From NCBI RefSeq assembly GCF_019075875.1, contig NZ_JAHOOZ010000001.1, forward strand, positions 6,053,501 to 6,117,500: a stretch of DNA of 64,000 nt. Reading direction: 5' to 3'. Of the stretch, positions 40,412-64,000 are shown in pieces. The notes under the pieces are model-generated. The model saw only the letters and a program-made list of their open reading frames with translations. It did no database searches and was not told the origin of the DNA. The stretch comes from Novosphingobium sp. G106. Its GTDB lineage: Bacteria; Pseudomonadota; Alphaproteobacteria; Sphingomonadales; Sphingomonadaceae. Position 1 is the first letter of the stretch. The number at the start of each line of letters is the position of its first letter. The position numbers and the translations under genes were made by a program.

Positions 40412-43342
40412 ATGTCGCTGACTCACATTACCGTGCGCGGTGCGCGCGAGCACAATCTCAAGGGCATCGACGTGGCGCTGCCGCGCGAGAAGCTGATCGT
40501 CATCACCGGGCTGTCGGGCTCGGGGAAGTCGAGCCTGGCTTTCGACACGATCTATGCCGAGGGGCAGCGGCGCTATGTCGAGAGCCTGAGCGCCTATGCG
40601 CGCCAGTTCCTCGAGATGATGCAGAAGCCCGATGTCGAGCATATCGACGGCCTCTCGCCCGCGATCTCGATCGAGCAGAAGACCACGAGCCGCAACCCGC
40701 GCTCGACCGTGGCGACGGTGACCGAGATCTACGACTACATGCGCCTGCTCTGGGCGCGCGTCGGCATTCCCTATTCGCCGGCCACGGGCCTGCCGATCCA
40801 GGCGCAGACCGTGAGCCAGATGGTCGATCGGGTCATGGCGCTGCCCGAAGGTACGCGGCTCTACCTGCTCGCGCCCGTCGTGCGCCAGCGCAAGGGCGAG
40901 TACCGCAAGGAATTGGCCGAGTGGCAGAAGGCCGGCTACACGCGCGTGCGCATCGACGGCGAGATGTACGAGATCGAGGCCGCACCGGCGCTCGACAAGA
41001 AGTACAAACACGACATCGAGGTCGTGGTGGATCGCCTCGCCGTGCGCGAGGGCATCGAGACGCGTCTGGCGGACTCATTCGAGCAGGCGCTGAAGCTGGC
41101 CGAGGGGCTGGCCTATGTCGATCTCGCCGAGGGCGTCGTGCCGGGGCGCGAGGAAGAGCAGGCCGGCGGTGCCAACGTCACGGGCGGGGCGATGAAAGGC
41201 ACCGGCCTACCGCCCAACCGCATCGTCTTCAGCGAAAAGTTCGCCTGCCCGGTCTCGGGTTTCACGCTGGAATCGATCGAGCCGCGGCTGTTCTCGTTCA
41301 ACGCGCCGATGGGCGCCTGCCCGGCCTGCGACGGGCTCGGCGAGAAGCTGCTGTTCGATCCGCAGATGGTCGTGCCGAACGAGGCGCTGACGCTCAAGCA
41401 GGGCGCGATCGTGCCCTGGGCCAAGTCGAACCCGCCGAGCCCCTATTACATGCAGGTGCTCGCCAGCCTGGCCAAGGCCTATGGCTTCGACCTGACCACG
41501 CCCTGGCAGGACCTGCCGGGCGAGGTGAAGCTGATCATCCTCCACGGCACCGGCGGCAAGAAGATCCCGCTGACTTTCATCGACGGCAAGAAGAGCTACA
41601 CGGTCGACAAGGCCTTCGAAGGCGTCATCGGCAATCTCAACCGCCGCCTGCTCCAGACCGAGAGCGCCTGGATGCGCGAGGAGCTGTCGAAGTACCAGAC
41701 CGCGCAGCCCTGCGAGACATGCCACGGCGCGCGGCTCAAGCCCGAGGCGCTGTCGGTCAAGATCGCCGGCGAGGACATCTCGATGTCGACGCGGCGCTCG
41801 GTCGCCGATGCCTATGCCTGGTTCTCGACGCTCGCGGAAAAGCTGAACCCGACGCAGAAGCAGATCGCTCATGCCATTCTCAAGGAAATCAACGAACGCC
41901 TTGGTTTTCTTAACAATGTCGGGCTCGACTACCTGAACCTCGACCGCACTTCAGGTACGCTCTCGGGCGGCGAGAGCCAGCGTATCCGGCTGGCCAGCCA
42001 GATCGGTTCGGGCCTGTCGGGCGTGCTCTACGTGCTCGACGAACCCTCGATCGGCCTCCACCAGCGCGACAACGACCGGCTGCTCGAAACCCTGAAGCGC
42101 CTGCGCGATCTCGGCAACACGGTGATCGTCGTCGAGCATGACGAGGACGCGATCCGCCATGCCGACCACGTGGTCGACCTTGGCCCCGGTGCGGGCGTCC
42201 ACGGTGGCGAGATCGTCGCCCAGGGCACGCTGCAGGATATCCTGTCGAACCCGAACAGCCTGACCGGCCAGTACCTGACCGGCGCGCGGGCGATCGAGAT
42301 CCCGGCCAAGCGGCGCAAGGGCAACAAGAAGAAGATCACGGTCGAGGGCGCGCGGGCGAACAACCTGCGCAACGTCACTGCGAGCATCCCGCTCGGCACC
42401 TTCTGCTGCATCACCGGCGTCTCGGGCTCGGGCAAGTCGAGCTTCACGATCGACACGCTCTATGCCGGCGCCGCGCGCACGCTCAACGGCGCGCGCGTGA
42501 TCGCGGGCCCGCACGACCGCATCACCGGGCTCGAGAACTGCGACAAGGTGATCGAGATCGACCAGTCGCCGATCGGCCGCACCCCGCGCTCGAACCCCGC
42601 GACTTACACGGGCGCCTTCACCCAGATCCGCGACTGGTTCGCCGGCCTGCCCGAAAGCCAGGCGCGCGGCTACAAGCCGGGGCGGTTCAGCTTCAACGTC
42701 AAGGGTGGCCGCTGCGAGATGTGCCAGGGCGATGGGCTGATCAAGATCGAGATGCACTTCCTGCCCGACGTCTACGTCACCTGCGAGGAATGCGGCGGCA
42801 AGCGCTACAACCGCGAGACCCTGGAAGTGAAGTTCAAGGGCCACTCGATCGCCGACGTGCTCGACATGACGGTCGAGGATGCCGAGGAGTTCTTCAAGGC
42901 CGTCCCGCCGATCCGCGAGAAGATGCACATGCTCAACGAGGTCGGCCTGGGCTACGTCAAGGTCGGCCAGCAGGCGACGACCTTGTCGGGGGGCGAGGCG
43001 CAGCGGGTCAAGCTGGCCAAGGAGCTCAGCCGGCGCTCGACCGGGCAGACGCTCTACATCCTCGACGAGCCGACTACCGGCCTGCACTTCGAGGACGTGC
43101 GCAAGCTGCTCGAAGTGCTGCAGCGGCTGGTCGACCAGGGCAATTCGGTCGTGGTGATCGAGCACAACCTCGACGTCATCAAGGTCGCCGACTGGATCAT
43201 CGACCTCGGCCCCGAAGGCGGCGTGCGCGGCGGCGAGATCGTCGCCGAGGGCACGCCCGAGCAGGTCGCCGCCAACCCGCGCAGCTTCACCGGCCACTAC
43301 CTCGCGCCGCTGCTGGAACGGGGCAGGGTGGCCGCGGAGTAA
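40412..43342 (+). CDS. uvrA: excinuclease ABC subunit A
   Basis: DNA damage sensor of nucleotide excision repair. It has 976 residues with two ABC ATPase modules: Walker [15 protein letters not shown] and [14 protein letters not shown], signatures [12 protein letters not shown] and [12 protein letters not shown], and zinc-finger cysteines ([24 protein letters not shown]). The ATG at 40412 gives the family N-terminus [18 protein letters not shown]. Divergent from the RTX gene with a LexA box in between. Confidence 0.97.
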
Positions 43343-43345
43343 GAA

Positions 43346-43470
43346 CCTCCCCTGCAAGGGGAGGGGGACCGCCCGCGAAGCGGGTGGTGGAGGGGTGTCC
43401 CGCTCTCAGGATAGGGTGATACCCCTCCGTCAGTCGCGACGCGACTGCCACCTCCCCCTCGCAGGGGAGG
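43346..43470. repeat. palindromic intergenic repeat (CCTCCCCT type)
   Basis: About 125 bp with nested inverted repeats: CCTCCCCTGCAAGGGGAGG at the left, CTCCCCCTCGCAGGGGAGG at the right, inner GACCGCCCGCGAAGCGGGT and a central GGAGGGGT / ACCCCTCC pair. I recognise this as a dispersed element common in sphingomonad genomes; it sits directly after uvrA and can also fold as a terminator. Confidence 0.7.
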
Positions 43471-43591: not shown

Positions 43592-44047
43592 ATGAGACAG
43601 CCTATCGCGATGATCGCCCTTGCCGGCGCGCTGGCCACCGCACCCGCGGCGGCCCAAAGCCCGGTCGCACCCGCCAGCGACATTCCCGCGGCGGTGTTCA
43701 ACGCCACGCTTACCGGCGCTTCCGAAGTCCCGCCCGCCGACGCCGACGGCACCGGCACTTTCACCGCCAAGCTCAATGCCGCGCACAACCAGCTCTGCTA
43801 CGAGCTCAAGGCCGACAAGATCGACACCGCCACCGCCGCGCACGTCCATTCGGGCGCGGTCGGGGTCAGCGGCCCGCCGGTGGTCATGCTCGACCCGCCC
43901 ATCAACGGCGTCGCGGTCAAATGCGCCGCGGTGACGATGGACCTCGCGATGAAGCTGATGGACAACCCAACCGGCTACTACGTCAACGTCCACAACGCCG
44001 CTTTCCCGAACGGCGCGATCCGCGGTCAGCTCCACAAGGCGCCCTGA
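43592..44047 (+). CDS. exported CHRD-domain protein
   Basis: 151 residues, signal peptide (MIALAGALATAPAAAQ) and a CHRD domain: TGASEVPPADADGTGTFTAK, AAHVHSGAVGVSGPPVVMLD, ending YYVNVHNAAFPNGAIRGQL. CHRD domains occur in chordin and many bacterial exported proteins of unknown function. A paralogue lies at 49614. Ribosome binding site GAGGAGGGG upstream. Confidence 0.85.
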   Translation: MRQPIAMIALAGALATAPAAAQSPVAPASDIPAAVFNATLTGASEVPPADADGTGTFTAKLNAAHNQLCYELKADKIDTATAAHVHSGAVGVSGPPVVMLDPPINGVAVKCAAVTMDLAMKLMDNPTGYYVNVHNAAFPNGAIRGQLHKAP

Positions 44048-44170: not shown

Positions 44171-45550
44171 ATGAACATCGACACCCTTAACCGCCGCGCC
44201 GCGCTTGGACTCATGGGCGCGGGCGTAGCCGCCACCGCCTTGCCGCCGCTAAGCCTCGCCGCCGCCACCGCACAACCCTGGCTCGCCACCCCCGCGCAGG
44301 TCGCGGCCGAGCGCATGCTGCTCGAACTGCTGAAAGATCCCGAGCTCAAGCGCATCCAGGGCGAAATCCGCGCCAAACTGGCCGACAGCCCGCGGGCGAA
44401 GAACATCCCCGATGCCATGGCCACGCTCGACGGCGCCATCGCCCAGTGGACCAATTCGCTGATCTTCGCCGAGCTGATGAAGGACACCGCGCGCCCCGGC
44501 TTCCTCTGGGCGACCGACGACACCCCGCGCGACTGGCTCGGCCACCATCTCGGCGGCGTCGGCACCTCGGGCGACAACCCCGACAACATCTACCGCACCG
44601 CCGGGATCGAGGGCGGCGGCCGCTACGAGATTCTCGGCCAGTACCACCCCGACAGCCGGCCGACCCAGCTGCTGATCGAGATCCACGGCGTCGATCTCGC
44701 CCAGCCGAGCACGATGATGACGCCGACCGCCAAGGGCGGCGGCAAGGCGCCCGATCCGCAGGCCTCGTCGCAGATCAACCAGGACGCGCTCGTCGTCGAT
44801 GCCCAGGGGCGGTTCCGCATCACCGTCGGCGGTGAGCCTTCCGGCCCGAACCATCTGGCGATCCCGCCAGCGGGCTTCGTCTCGGTCGGCGTGCGCGACG
44901 TGCTGTCGGACTGGAAGCAGCGCGCCGCCGGGCTGACGATCAACCGGCTCGACCGTGTCGACGCGCCCGCGTTCGGCCTCGAACAGGCGCGCGCGCTCGT
45001 CCACCGCGACTTGCCCGGCTATATCGATTTCTGGTCGAACTTCCCGAACATCTGGTTCGGCGGCCTCGCGCCCAACACCATATCGAAGCCGCAGCAGCGC
45101 CCCGGCGGCTGGGGCTTCGTCGCGGGGATCAACTACCACCTCGCGGCGGACGAGGCGCAGGTGATCACGCTCGATCCGGGCGGCTCGAGGTACACGGGCT
45201 TCCAGATCAACGACCCCTGGATGATCGCGCCTGACGCGCGCGCCCGGCAGGTCTGCCTCAACGGCAGCCAGGTGACGCCCAATGCCGACGGCACCGTGAC
45301 CTACGTGATCGCCGCGAGCGACCCGGGCGCGGCCAACTGGCTCGACACCACCGGCTACCACGACGGCCTCGCCATCCTCCGCTGGCAGGCGATCCCGCCG
45401 GGGCTCAAGGGCGATGGCCTGATCCGCGAGTTCAAGGTGGTGAAGCTGAGCGAGCTTGCGGCGATCAAGGGCCTGCCGCGGGTAACGCCGGCCGAGCGCC
45501 GCGCGCGGGTGGCGGCGCGGAAGGCGGACTATGAGACTAGGGTGCGGTGA
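44171..45550 (+). CDS. exported DUF1214-like protein with possible Tat signal
   Basis: 459 residues from ATG 44171. N-terminus NRRAALGLMGAGVAATALPP has a twin-arginine and hydrophobic stretch, suggesting Tat export. The C-terminal third (ADEAQVITLDPGGSRYTGFQ, DGTVTYVIAASDPGAANWLDT) resembles DUF1214 proteins. Preceded by GGGAGAGCACC. Function unknown; family assignment moderately sure. Confidence 0.65.
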   Translation: MNIDTLNRRAALGLMGAGVAATALPPLSLAAATAQPWLATPAQVAAERMLLELLKDPELKRIQGEIRAKLADSPRAKNIPDAMATLDGAIAQWTNSLIFAELMKDTARPGFLWATDDTPRDWLGHHLGGVGTSGDNPDNIYRTAGIEGGGRYEILGQYHPDSRPTQLLIEIHGVDLAQPSTMMTPTAKGGGKAPDPQASSQINQDALVVDAQGRFRITVGGEPSGPNHLAIPPAGFVSVGVRDVLSDWKQRAAGLTINRLDRVDAPAFGLEQARALVHRDLPGYIDFWSNFPNIWFGGLAPNTISKPQQRPGGWGFVAGINYHLAADEAQVITLDPGGSRYTGFQINDPWMIAPDARARQVCLNGSQVTPNADGTVTYVIAASDPGAANWLDTTGYHDGLAILRWQAIPPGLKGDGLIREFKVVKLSELAAIKGLPRVTPAERRARVAARKADYETRVR

Positions 45551-45578
45551 GGGTTTTCTAAGGCACCGGGCGTGGGTA

Positions 45579-47880
45579 CTACAGACTACGTGCTGCGATT
45601 AATAGAGCATCTGTCGATGTGTTCGGACCATTTATGATAGACAAGGCCGTGCTGCTCCGCCCTCGATTTGGTATGATGATTTTGCGTCTGTCTAAATGAA
45701 TTTCTTCAGCAAAATTATGAGATTTTATCAATGAAACAATGTCTTCGACATACTTAGAGGCTGACGCTGGAAGTCCCCGGTTGAGCGCGCTGTACTGTCT
45801 TCCGGATCCTCTTTGTAGGAACAGTTTTCTAAGTACTGTAAGGAGTACTTTGACAGCGGGCGGTAATGTCGATTCTAGAATGGCGTTGTTAGTTCCAGCA
45901 AATGCCGCGTATCTTTCAACCGTTGTGTCTCCGCGTAACACATCACTTGGGAGATCTTGCCTGGAAACAACCCCCTCTAACGTATCGATTACGCAATCCA
46001 GAAATGTCGGGTAGTTCTCCTCTTCAAGTTTGGAGCTGTCTCGACCCATTTCGACTCGCGAAAAAACACATGATTTAAATGTTAAAGATGAAAAGTTTAT
46101 ATTTGCATCCACGGTTATAGAATCAAAATTTGCATCGGATATTATAATGGGATCACCTTTATAGGCGCTTCCTTTTTCGGTAATTATTGCGATAATGTCC
46201 GATGCAGTAATTGATAGTTTGGGGTTTTTGCTCGCCTGAGAAAGGGCGATAGATAACTTGCTTTCCGCATCAGCGATTTTTTCTGAGGTTAAAGAAAGAC
46301 CCAGTGGCTGGAGGCTTCGTTTTATATCTTCTAGGCCGGCGTGCTCAACGAATGGTGACTCGATAAAGCGCTTCAAGTCACCGCTTCCCGCTGCGTCAGC
46401 AAAATCTATATCGATGAATTCGCGTGCTCCGACGCGTCCTGGTACCGCCCCCAGTCCCGGAAGTCGTCCAGCAAGTAGGTTGGCGGGTTCGTCAGCATCT
46501 CGTCCAAAGACGGCCCGAAATACCGCTTTAATATCGCTCTCCTGTAATCCTTTGCTACCCTCTGCGCTTTGCCTTGCTTTTGTAGATAGGCCTTCAATGA
46601 ATAGGCGCAATTCCAAAGCCTCTGCGCCAGCGCCCCAAATTTGCTTAACTTCGCGCTCGCAAATACTATTTAAAAGGTGGTCCCAGCCAGAGGTAGGATT
46701 GAGCGCAGCTAATTCTTCGCTATCTTTCAATAGGCCGCTATTAGCTAGGTATCCAAGCAGGAGCGGGCGGGTCGGTAGCCAATTGGGCAGCATATTTGAT
46801 TTGAGTTTGAGGTATTTTGCAATTTGCTCATCATTAAATCCGGCAAGTTCTAGAACAGTGTCTTTCGTACTGTAGCCTATGGCCTGTCTAGATTCATCTC
46901 TACTGTCAAAATAGTTCTCGCGACCTGCGAGAAATATGGATGCATTTCCTGGGGTCTGCTCAAAAAACTTTTTCACTAACTCGACGGCTAATCGACGGGC
47001 ATGCTTGAGATTTGAAATGGAAACGCCAAATTGCGGAGGGGTTAGCTCATCGAATCCGTCGAGAAAAAGTGTTACAAAGCCCGCTCTCCATGCGGAAATC
47101 AGTCGGTTTGGATCTTCAAATCCAATTAGTTGAGCGTGACGGAATAGCGCCTCATCAGGATTAAGTTGAGCTATGTGTTTTCGAAGATTTAGATATATCG
47201 GACATTGTATTGTTTTGTTTTCCGAAAATCTATCGCGACACCTTGAGTAAATATCTCTCAAGGTCATGCTTTTTCCAGATCCATAATCACCATAAATTAT
47301 AAATCGTTGACCGCCGATCGTCTGCTCGGAAAGTTTAAGGGCTGTTTTGTTTTCGCCTGTTAGGACGTTATTAAGGGCTGTTTGTATATAGGATGAAGGT
47401 GGAACATTATAGTCATTGTCATCGGCTGGATTTCTAATGCTTCCAAAAAAATGATCTCCCCGCAATCTGATATAATGCCTGCCGTCAAAAAGTCGGGAGA
47501 ACAGCGTTGAAAACGAAATAATCTCTTTTGGGCAATTTACTTTATATGATCGAACTACGTCGTTTTGATCGGCTGTTGGTTCGTCCAATGTTATCAATAT
47601 AATTCGAAAGTTATATTCAGAAAATCGCGGAGATAATTTGAGTTGTCTTACCAAATCTCTGCATTTTATTAAATCATATTCGGTCTTATTCTTTTTTTCG
47701 CTCTTTAGTTGCCTCGATAACGATCAATTCGGTGCCTGTGTCGATAATTTCGTCACGTTCACGGCCATCGAGAATGATCGAACCGGTGGCTGCTGCGCCT
47801 CGGTAAAGGTGGCGAGCGACCTGCCGTACCGAAGCTTCAAAGTGCTCACCGGAAAGTGCATCGGCATGAAAATCGGGCAT
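45579..47880 (-). CDS. nuclease-NACHT (STAND) NTPase, candidate anti-phage protein; frameshifted as given
   Basis: As given, two frames meet at an A7 run (T7 on the plus strand, 47692-47698). With six A the frame reads ATKERKKNKTEYDLIKCRDL and joins them into about 766 residues from ATG 47880 (MPDFHADALSGEHFEASVRQ). N-terminal 110 residues carry a PD-(D/E)xK-like core (RERDEIIDTGTELIVIEATK). The NACHT module has Walker A YGDYGSGKSMT and Walker B TLFLDGFDEL, with the sensor FLAGRE. The C-terminal part includes a short pentapeptide-like stretch (DANFDSITVDANINFSSL). The gene is far AT-richer than its surroundings and stands alone, typical of acquired defence genes. The effector assignment is inference. 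Confidence 0.72.
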
Positions 47881-48077
47881 TGGCTCAGGATGGATTGAGG
47901 CAGGTCTGTTCGTCAAGATCGTTAATTGCAAAGCGACCGAAACAGATCTTTTTCGTTTGGGGGCATTCTGTCGCAAGCTCTTATTGGTCTCGCTCAGCCC
48001 ACCATGAAAAAGGAGTTGGCCGATTTGGAACCCCCGACGTACCCACATCGATTTATGGGAAGATTTGGAGCGGGACA

Positions 48078-48518
48078 CTATGAACTCACCAACCCAAACT
48101 CCAACGTCCCAATCCCCTCGAACACCCGCCGCGTGAACTTCCAGCCCTCGGGCGTCCGCACCAGCGTGTCGGCGTAGATGCCGAGGTATTCGACGCTCTC
48201 GGCCTTGCCCTTGTACTTGCCGCCCTCGCGGATGCCCGAGCGGGCCGTGGCCTCGTCGCCCGCCACATCGATCACCGCGGGGGCATTGTGCTGGAGGACG
48301 AATTCGAGCGGCTCCGACAGCATCGCGAGCGCGCCGCGGATCGCCTCGAGCCCGGCGAAGCGCAGCCCCAGGTGCGGGATCTCCCAGACCGCGTCGGCGG
48401 TGAACAGCGCCAGCACCGGCGCCCAGTCGCCGCGGCCGGTCAGCGTGGCATAGGCGCTGATCACCCGCTGCACGGCCAGCTGGTCGGCCAAATCGGCCAG
48501 GTTTTGGTCATTCGGCAT
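48078..48518 (-). CDS. SnoaL-like (NTF2 fold) protein
   Basis: 146 residues (MPNDQNLADLADQLAVQRVI, then TGRGDWAPVLALFTADAVWE and GLRFAGLEAIRGAL). SnoaL_4-type cone fold, often small-molecule isomerase or hydrolase; no substrate evident. ATG 48518 chosen over an upstream in-frame ATG because it begins the fold. Divergent from the next gene; the 269-nt spacer (48519-48787) shows no further gene. Confidence 0.75.
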   Translation of the reverse strand: MPNDQNLADLADQLAVQRVISAYATLTGRGDWAPVLALFTADAVWEIPHLGLRFAGLEAIRGALAMLSEPLEFVLQHNAPAVIDVAGDEATARSGIREGGKYKGKAESVEYLGIYADTLVRTPEGWKFTRRVFEGIGTLEFGLVSS

Positions 48519-48787
48519 CGCACGCTTCCTCTCGTTTCGCATTTTCCTACTCATGCCAAATCTGCCTAGTCTTGGCGCGTCCAATCTTCACGAGCGCCGT
48601 CATGACGTCATCCACCCGCAACCCCCTGATTTCACCGGACCTTCTCGCGCAAAACCGCGACTCACCGAAACATTTTTGCCTGCGCGACATGGGTGACCTT
48701 CCTGAACTTCGCGGGCTTCATCCGGCGCTTTACAAGCCCGCCGCCCCGCCGCATTCTCGCGCCGTCCGCACGAGGGGAGAGCGTGCC

Positions 48788-49192
48788 ATGAGTACCAGCG
48801 CCGATCCGGTAGACGTCGTCACGACCTTCCTCGCGCTATGGGAGCAGCCCGGCGGGCTCGACCAGTCGGTGCGCGAATATTTCCTGCCGACGACCGTCTG
48901 GGAGAACGTCGGCCTCGCCACGACCACCGGGCAGGACGAGGCGATCGCGCTCAACGCGCAGCTCTGCGCTGCGGTCGGCATGGCGACGATCCGCGTCGAC
49001 AACCTCGCGGTCGCCGTGACCGGCAACAAGGTGCTGACCGAGCGGATCGACCATATGGTCAATGCCGCGGGCGAAACGACCTACTCGGCGCCGGTCATGG
49101 GCATCTTCGAGATCGAAAACGGTAAGATCGCCGCCTGGCGCGACTATTTCGACAGCGCCGGCGCCGCCGCGCTGATGCAGGGGAAGGCGTGA
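48788..49192 (+). CDS. limonene-1,2-epoxide hydrolase-like protein 1
   Basis: 134 residues. NTF2-fold protein with the Asp-Arg-Asp pattern of limonene-epoxide hydrolases: R-x-D in VLTERIDHM and Asp in GKIAAWRDYFD. Start ATG 48788 after GAGGGGAGAGCG. Coupled with the next gene, its paralogue (overlap at the stop). Epoxide hydrolase activity is suggested but not certain. Confidence 0.78.
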   Translation: MSTSADPVDVVTTFLALWEQPGGLDQSVREYFLPTTVWENVGLATTTGQDEAIALNAQLCAAVGMATIRVDNLAVAVTGNKVLTERIDHMVNAAGETTYSAPVMGIFEIENGKIAAWRDYFDSAGAAALMQGKA

Positions 49193-49578
49193 TGCAAAGC
49201 CCGGCCCAGATCGTCTCGGACTTCATCGCGCTGTGGGAGGAGCCCGACGGCTTCCCCCAGGCGGTCGACACCTATTTCACCCCCGACACGGTCTGGGAGA
49301 ACCACGGCCTGATCACCACGCGCGGGCCCGAGGAGGCGATCGGCTTCTACGACCAGTTCGGCGCGGCCACGGGCATGAAGGGGATGCGGATCGACGTCCT
49401 CGCCATTGCCGAGACCGGCGCGAAGGTGCTGACCGAGCGGGTGGACTACATTCTCGGCGCCGGGGGTGAGACGGTGATGACCGTGCCGGTGATGGGGATT
49501 TTCGAAGTGGAAGGCGGGCGGATAACCGCCTGGCGCGACTATTTCGATACAGTCGCAAATTCGCCGCCCGCGGGTTGA
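49192..49578 (+). CDS. limonene-1,2-epoxide hydrolase-like protein 2
   Basis: 128 residues, paralogue of the preceding protein, with VLTERVDYILG and GGRITAWRDYFDT keeping the R-x-D and Asp residues. The ATG at 49192 overlaps the previous stop (TGATG); a GTG at 49189 is an alternative. Tandem arrangement suggests gene duplication with divergent or heteromeric function. Confidence 0.78.
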   Translation: MQSPAQIVSDFIALWEEPDGFPQAVDTYFTPDTVWENHGLITTRGPEEAIGFYDQFGAATGMKGMRIDVLAIAETGAKVLTERVDYILGAGGETVMTVPVMGIFEVEGGRITAWRDYFDTVANSPPAG

Positions 49579-55645: not shown

Positions 55646-55715
55646 GTTAGATCTCCGGGCCGGGCGATGGACAAGACAACGACATCGCGGATCCCGCCCA
55701 GCCAGGCGGAGCCGC

Positions 55716-55838
55716 AATGCCATTGGTCTCGCCTGAACGGTGTCCCGTCCTCCCTGCGCCATGGCCTCTCGACCAAGTATGTTGACGCAGGGTTCCGTCT
55801 TGCGACGGCTGGCTACTCCCCAGATGACGCCTGGCAGT
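55716..55838 (-). promoter_or_regulatory. yybP-ykoY manganese riboswitch
   Basis: On the minus strand: P1 arm TGCCA (55836-55832), GGGGAGTAGCC (55821-55811), the second-loop CATACT (55781-55776) after CGTCAA, then GGCGAGACC (55733-55725) and the closing TGGCA (55722-55718). These are the class's conserved parts in the right order. It ends about 70 nt before the UPF0016 start, so Mn2+ binding should turn on the exporter. Confidence 0.82.
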
Positions 55839-62788: not shown

Positions 62789-62864
62789 GGGGACGCTCTA
62801 GGTCATGCTTCGAGCGAGGGGAATGGTCCGAAGAGTGTTGAGATCGTTCGCCTTCGTACAAGCC

Positions 62865-63509
62865 TCAGCACTTCAAAGCGACCGGCCTCAACACGCGCTG
62901 CCGCCGCGCAGCCGCACCGATCAGGCCGAGCCCGACGATCATCAATGCCCAGCTGACGGGCTCGGGCACCGGCGCCCAGGTTCCTACACTGTAGCCGAAG
63001 CTGTTCGCGCTGGGACCGGTAACTTTGATGTCTATCGTCATAGCGTTCGGCGATTTCCAAGTATAGCCGCACTTGTTCTGAATGCCGGACACGCGATCGG
63101 CCTCTGGAAGATCGAAGCAAATAAATGCATCGTTGGACTTGGACCAGTCTACGAAAATCTCGTTTGCGACAACCTTGATATCGAGCGTGGCAAAGAGCGA
63201 TATCGGATAAGCGGGGCTCTGAGTGAAAAATTCGTCATGGCATGTACCATCTTTGACAGCGCACTCGACGATCGTGCCTCCATTGTAGTCGTAGATCCAC
63301 TTGCCCCTATCAAATTCCCACCAATAATGATTGAAGTATCCGGAGTTGCCGGAGACATCGACTACATCGCTATCGGTCAAGCCGGTCAGGGTGATTTTCT
63401 GATGCACACCCTGACTGGAGGCGGTGCTGCTCAGCGTGATCGTCGTCACGGCTGCGGCGGGCATCGTCCATAATGCGGCCAGAGCGGCCATTAACCAACC
63501 GAATCGCAT
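62865..63509 (-). CDS. PEP-CTERM sorting-domain exported protein
   Basis: 214 residues from ATG 63509. Signal peptide (MRFGWLMAALAALWTMPAAA), a beta-rich middle with cysteine pairs, and a C-terminal PEP-CTERM tail (VPEPVSWALMIVGLGLIGAA followed by RRQR). Such proteins are processed by exosortase and often link to EPS or biofilm. AT-richer than neighbours. Confidence 0.85.
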   Translation of the reverse strand: MRFGWLMAALAALWTMPAAAVTTITLSSTASSQGVHQKITLTGLTDSDVVDVSGNSGYFNHYWWEFDRGKWIYDYNGGTIVECAVKDGTCHDEFFTQSPAYPISLFATLDIKVVANEIFVDWSKSNDAFICFDLPEADRVSGIQNKCGYTWKSPNAMTIDIKVTGPSANSFGYSVGTWAPVPEPVSWALMIVGLGLIGAAARRQRVLRPVALKC

Positions 63510-63609
63510 GATCGAGCCTCCTGAAGGGCGGAGAACGTCCATCTTGGGAAGCCAGATGTCGATTCAAACTCGATCCAAATTCAATGTCTTGGAACGGACA
63601 TGAAGCGCA

Positions 63610-64000
63610 TCACCCCGGCGTGCGCTTGCCGATGAAGTGGCTCAGCGGCGCATTGCCGGTGTAGCGCGCCCGCGTCGGGTTCATCGCTTCGTAGACCACG
63701 GCATTCTCGAGCACGCGCTGGACGTAGTTGCGCGTCTCGCTGATGTCGATCCGCTCGATCCAGTCGACCCAGTCGACCGAACCCGTTCGCGGGTCGCCGT
63801 TGTTGCGCAGCCACTTGTTCACGTTGCCCGGACCGGCGTTGTAGGCGGCCACCGCGAGCGGATAGGAGCCGCCGTAATAGTCCATCATCCGCGCGAAATA
63901 GGCGTCGCCCAGTCGCAGGTTGTAGCTGGGATCGGCCATCAGTGCGCTGGCGTCGAATGCGAGGCCGATCTTGCCCGCCTGCTCGCGCGCCGTGCCCGGC
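63610..64000 (-). CDS. soluble lytic murein transglycosylase (5' end outside window)
   Basis: C-terminal part only; the frame is open to the window edge. The SLT motifs are SYNLRLGDAYFARMM and YPLAVAAYNAGPGNVNKWL, followed by ETRNYVQRVLENAVVYEAM. Cleaves peptidoglycan glycan strands. The catalytic Glu lies outside the window. Confidence 0.88.
   Translation of the reverse strand, partial: PGTAREQAGKIGLAFDASALMADPSYNLRLGDAYFARMMDYYGGSYPLAVAAYNAGPGNVNKWLRNNGDPRTGSVDWVDWIERIDISETRNYVQRVLENAVVYEAMNPTRARYTGNAPLSHFIGKRTPG

Follow-up and report, generated by a model that had tools for sequence, protein, structure and literature searches.

Bacterial NACHT proteins with a nuclease at the N-terminus have already been described as anti-phage receptors. 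For bNACHT25 and bNACHT32, which belong to clade 6, the published account reports N-terminal PD-(D/E)XK DNase domains that are required for defence, with a D48A substitution that abolishes defence and an infection that leads to DNA degradation (PMC12169576). The report on DefensePredictor describes DS-8, a NACHT anti-phage protein with a metallophosphatase effector, and finds PD-(D/E)XK domains in 13 out of another 31 systems that were validated (PMC13092281), while an eLife survey of 2020 treats REase effectors in NTP-dependent conflict systems (PMC7159879). The locus examined here lies in a 64-kb stretch of the Novosphingobium sp. G106 genome (7.2 Mb, five contigs), referred to below as the window, and is best explained, with a probability of about 0.78, as a horizontally acquired, solitary gene for a NACHT (NLR-related) anti-phage receptor that is now interrupted in this strain. 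In relatives whose gene is intact, the receptor would detect a cue of infection through its C-terminal region and respond by a switch and oligomerisation of its NACHT ATPase; the REase-like N-terminus would then cut DNA, stopping the infected cell. By analogy with the described nuclease-NACHT proteins, members of the family would be expected to confer anti-phage defence.

The gene occupies positions 45579–47880 on the minus strand (Table 1). Its ATG at 47880 opens a frame of 64 codons that stops just beyond an A7 run, and a second frame of 707 codons continues without stops to the end of the gene. Across 45551–48077 the GC content is 45.2%, whereas 500-base windows over the rest of the 64 kb average 65.4% (sd 3.2); third-codon-position GC is 0.38 in the long frame but 0.92 and 0.88 in the genes on either side. 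Homopolymers of at least seven bases occur only twice in the window, both times within this gene. A preliminary description made from the sequence had placed an AT-rich single gene at these coordinates and had located a frame break at the A7 run, and both observations were reproduced. The only other area in which 500-base windows fall below 56% GC, a second and milder dip (52–56%), lies near the right end of the window at 62801–63700.

Table 1. Positions of predicted and observed features of the locus (window coordinates; blank cells, no entry)
Feature	Position	Strand	Basis
N-terminal frame, 64 aa; first part of predicted REase-like domain	47689..47880	-	sequence, profile comparison
Helix with FE, in N-terminal frame	47803-47841	-	
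GRERD motif, in N-terminal frame	47746-47766	-	
VIEAT, in N-terminal frame	within 47692-47721	-	
A7 tract (T7 on plus strand), site of frame interruption	47692..47698	-	
C-terminal open frame, 707 aa; rest of predicted REase-like domain, NACHT, helical region, sensor-like C-terminus	45579..47702	-	
Walker A GDYGSGKS, NACHT domain	47268..47291	-	
Walker B LFLDGFDEL	47043..47069	-	
Short beta-solenoid-like (pentapeptide-like by eye) stretch FSSLTFKSCVF ... DCVIDTLEGVVS	45963..46094	-	sequence inspection
C-terminal block VKVLLTVLRKLFLQRGSGRQYSALNRGLP, winged-helix-like by eye	45768..45854	-	several columns (near-)invariant, 59 rows
Low-GC segment, probably acquired	45551..48104	.	edges of homology with gene-free relatives

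A NACHT domain (PF05729) was matched at an E-value of 1.8e-8 and 34.9 bits, above the curated cut-off of 26.7, and both Walker motifs were found (A, GDYGSGKS; B, LFLDGFDEL), in agreement with the NACHT NTPase of the preliminary description. In an alignment of 59 rows the columns G199, G201, K202, S203 and D273–E277 are invariant, and a profile search found NACHT at E ≤0.1 in 41 of 42 relatives. No other Pfam family reached its cut-off in the window protein, the C-terminus included, and no named C-terminal NACHT-associated Pfam domain was found either in this protein or among the 25 families matched by the 42 relatives. Searches with the models of PADLOC 2.0.0 gave the window protein no convincing match (best E 0.012). 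The PADLOC model mad8 was weakly matched by 23 of the 42 relatives (best E 1e-5) and the NCBIfam model ATPase_Sll1717 by 17 (best E 4.2e-5), presumably through the NTPase in both cases. A sequence search of solved structures returned chance-like matches only and no relative, and a search of PHROGs gave a weak match to a family of unknown function.

The preliminary description had pointed to presence or absence in sister strains as informative, and the locus proved to be patchy. Only five of 195 genomes of the genus, that of G106 included, have a match at E ≤1e-3, leaving 190 without one. The sole close match within the genus is in genome G144, at 52–63% identity; among the others, two reach 26–28% identity over the greater part of the length and one covers part of the NACHT domain only. 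At the family level, a match at E 1e-20 was found in two of the 397 genomes sampled, again counting G106, and in the other one it starts at residue 163. Two genomes of the genus that are not among the five with a match, G127 and G003, have the corresponding site but not the gene. Between the two flanking genes, which encode the 466-aa protein and the SnoaL-like protein, G127 has other content, namely a CHRD gene and a 316-aa ORF, and in G003 the SnoaL-like gene stands 1.0 kb from the end of the 466-aa gene, with a CHRD match inside the interval. A check for two NACHT motifs, which detected both in the gene of the window and in that of Novosphingobium album, found neither of them in these two stretches. 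The flanking genes are direct neighbours, in swapped order, in a third genome, G116. Homology with the gene-free relatives stops at 45546–45553 and restarts at 48105. These gene-free sites indicate that a variable intergenic site either gained the gene in G106 or lost it in other genomes, and horizontal acquisition is supported; the site may be a small insertion hotspot. Integration of a site-specific element was considered and rejected, as the window contains no tRNA and the two edges carry no direct repeat; the only feature of the edges is a 14-base inverted pair (45766/48132, 86%), which looks like chance. As a separate observation, the 316-aa ORF of G127, of unknown function (L054:3568-4518; G127:C20), has 53.5% GC, with 67–71% in its flanks.

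The surroundings of the gene agree only in part with the preliminary description, which had set it between housekeeping genes: uvrA and argininosuccinate synthase, the clear housekeeping genes, stand further out, whereas the nearest neighbours look accessory and comprise the gene for a 466-aa protein (with a sub-threshold DUF1214 match) as well as SnoaL-like, LEH-like and CHRD genes. A scan of ten proteins for a defence island (nine window ORFs and one from L054) yielded a single PADLOC match at E 0.001, a methyltransferase matched by mad2 and classed by Pfam as a cyclopropane synthase, and thus no defence genes among the scanned neighbours; this is a weak test, covering a small part of the window ORFs, with one of the ten (41951-43354, minus strand) antisense to uvrA. 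Several other features of the window were recorded. The CHRD-domain gene at 43592–44044, upstream of the 466-aa gene, has a DNA-similar copy in the right flank at about 49.7–50.0 kb, and its place relative to the 466-aa gene varies among relatives. A tandem pair of limonene-epoxide-hydrolase-like genes lies at 48572–49575, and a manganese (yybP-ykoY) riboswitch scores 62.7 bits at 55657–55834 on the minus strand.

Outside the genus, relatives of about 765 aa in one open frame are distributed across several phyla, which by record titles include Pseudomonadota, Actinomycetota, Planctomycetota, Gemmatimonadota and Nitrospirota, among others. At least 140 homologues were found, of which 120 were listed, with scoring applied to the 8000 candidates that share most words. 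The gene has lower GC than its flanks in all 23 loci from named genomes, by at least 0.10 in 16 of them (flanks of 413 bases to 19 kb). At 14 loci for which ORFs were called crudely, the neighbours vary from locus to locus; judged by eye from their first residues, they include lepA for N. album and, for Pseudoduganella, flagellar genes. By the same calls the members seem to stand alone. Mobile carriers are also represented. Pseudomonas phage Haddon, the only match among 50,697 phage records, encodes a complete member of 766 aa that is annotated as hypothetical (PQ571161.1:13749-16049; L110:5740-8040) and is 33% identical to the window frame and 42% identical to P0108. On one side it has the lysis and tail genes and on the other, beyond two small genes, an integrase-like gene; its GC is 46.6%, compared with 64.3% over the remainder of the 14-kb stretch. 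The plasmid collection yielded a single match in 72,556 records, a member of 27% identity from Erwinia persicina that has a site-specific integrase gene close by. Among viral contigs, 98 stretches fitted a pattern and included no relative. These occurrences describe a widespread and mobile family of seemingly solitary genes.

The effector assignment turns on the N-terminal domain, which the preliminary description had called PD-(D/E)xK-like. Card1 is a CRISPR-associated protein that is not known to have a NACHT domain. All Pfam matches to the N-terminal domain lay below threshold; the most informative of them, Card1_endonuc, had an E-value of 0.0078 for one N-terminal piece out of six and 0.043 for one of 42 relatives. 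Profile–profile comparison with Card1 (PF09002) gave probabilities of 73% (14 rows) and 61% (58 rows), for which a comparison of Card1 with NA-iREase1, at 93%, serves as a yardstick; the Card1 profile was built from 17 of 22 Card1 matches, four near-identical ones having been left out and one being too short. The 58-row score of 33.4 exceeds the maximum of 16.1 among 100 controls, which are column shuffles rather than real unrelated profiles. The alignment spans residues 38–103 (P0006 numbering, as in what follows) and brings the GRERD aspartate and the VEAT glutamate onto the Card1 D and E; these residues, D42 and E55, are kept in all 58 rows that reach them. The Card1 lysine aligns with position 57, a threonine in 58 of 58 rows. 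Similarity to NA-iREase1 (PF22722), the NACHT-associated inactive restriction endonuclease of Pfam, is weaker: profile comparison gave 20% and 5%, with a score of 21.2 against 19.1 for the best shuffle, from a profile of 21 of 25 loci cut on the assumption of 1500-base flanks, so that some rows may be miscut. The Pfam cut-off for this family was not reached (best E 0.042 in one of 42 relatives and 0.09 in one of six N-terminal pieces), and the window genome contains no match to it at E 0.001. That the N-terminal domain is catalytically dead, serving for DNA binding or as a scaffold while the effector acts otherwise, would accommodate both the invariant threonine and the sub-threshold NA-iREase1 matches, but this reading is doubtful: besides the invariant acidic pair, K64 (57 of 59 rows) and K71 (59 of 59) lie further on and fit an active site with a displaced lysine, and displaced catalytic lysines occur in such active sites. 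The preliminary assignment is thus supported as regards a nuclease-fold-like N-terminus, by a Card1 score above all 100 shuffles, and qualified as to the motif. With moderate probability the domain has the REase fold and a modified active site, and its nuclease activity is predicted only, because the lysine of the ExK motif is a threonine in all 58 aligned relatives. This replacement is a testable oddity of the effector.

The state of the gene copies bears on whether the receptor acts in this strain. The interruption might be a homopolymer artefact of assembly, the gene of the strain being intact and working, since the break falls on an A7 run in a five-contig assembly and the 707-codon frame downstream has kept free of stops; however, the N. 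album copy (L007) is interrupted too, at another A-tract (an A8 where the NACHT domain ends), its assembly having Platanus, a short-read assembler, in the title, and a close metagenomic relative is found as separate N- and C-terminal pieces. The N-terminal piece, P0122, is 97% identical in that part, passes the break point of the window copy and stops as an ORF at residue 85, and the C-terminal proteins P0003 and P0004, 93% identical, begin at residue 95; these pieces likely stem from one organism. P0123 (84% identical) ends at residue 84, and it and P0122 were recovered as N-terminal ORFs of 84–85 aa in a search limited to short ORFs. An assembly artefact is accordingly a possible but unlikely source of the break. 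Programmed frameshifting throughout the family was rejected, because most relatives have a single frame (18 of 23 loci in named genomes have one open frame over the match, with L011, L022 and L025 apparently truncated by contig ends; 101 of the 120 listed proteins, which include the fragment of G106 itself, are near full length) and because the A7 that N. album has in the corresponding stretch does not break its frame. The five interrupted loci are those of N. album, of Rhodocyclales (L026) and three weaker loci of one Planctomycetota MAG. It is improbable, in turn, that the A-tracts form a phase-variable or slippage-expressed switch by which a costly suicide receptor is kept off in most cells. 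Both in-genus copies that are more than 50% identical, those of the window and N. album, are interrupted at A-tracts, and A7 runs recur in the same lysine-bearing stretch (about residues 61–71) in the window, N. album and the Rhodocyclales MAG; yet N. album breaks elsewhere, the Rhodocyclales break is away from any homopolymer of at least six, runs of at least seven are absent from 9 of 18 loci and A-runs of that length are present in only 4 of 18, while such runs are expected from an AT-rich, lysine-rich composition and are favoured by decay. Less probable still is a bet-hedging version, in which the lysine-rich active-site segment of an NLR-like suicide nuclease would be written in A-tracts and slippage would turn the receptor on in a minority of cells. 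The papers listed in literature searches included none on point that links NACHT or defence genes with slippage or phase variation.

Recurrent decay of a costly gene most simply accounts for the interruptions. Because the window copy is interrupted and its relative in the genus is interrupted elsewhere as well, the window copy may not act at all; it is probably non-functional, whether silent or decaying. The remaining listed proteins are short at the N-terminus (11), at the C-terminus (7) or at both (1). Eight of the 11 N-terminally short ones, including P0002 of the window itself, start at residues 58–97 (P0006 numbering). Together with the short N-terminal ORFs P0122 and P0123 this is suggestive of a two-gene, split system, a reading that was considered and not adopted, because these members may instead reflect breaks in the nuclease domain or truncation at contig edges. 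P0005, P0009, P0027, P0089 and P0111 are among the proteins that start in this interval.

As a single protein with an N-terminal nuclease of predicted PD-(D/E)XK type, a central NACHT domain and a C-terminal region predicted to sense, the family resembles bNACHT25 and bNACHT32 as these are described, and differs in that their C-terminus is NCH1, a Pfam family found neither in the window protein nor in its 42 relatives. The preliminary description held that a nuclease-NACHT protein with such a C-terminus is little described; the nuclease-NACHT combination is in fact known from the available account of these two proteins (PMC12169576), and the part that stands is a C-terminus that reaches the cut-off of no Pfam family. 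DS-8 (NF053861) also contains NACHT and its model is matched by two of the 42 relatives (best E 0.0023), but its effector is described as a metallophosphatase. Card1 is the better profile match of the two nuclease families compared, with coinciding D and E columns, and departs from the nuclease-NACHT family in having E-C-K where the latter has E-x-T. NA-iREase1 is by name a NACHT-associated REase-like domain, with weak partial similarity over the later part, and is set apart by the low profile probabilities and the lack of a match in the window genome given above. The family adds to the nuclease-NACHT receptors a widespread group whose member in the window has no convincing PADLOC 2.0.0 match and, at its predicted sensor end, no Pfam match at cut-off; since its members seem solitary, they would often be overlooked by searches that depend on defence islands. 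The gene of Novosphingobium sp. G106 is a further member of the known nuclease-NACHT receptor kind, and not a new type of system.
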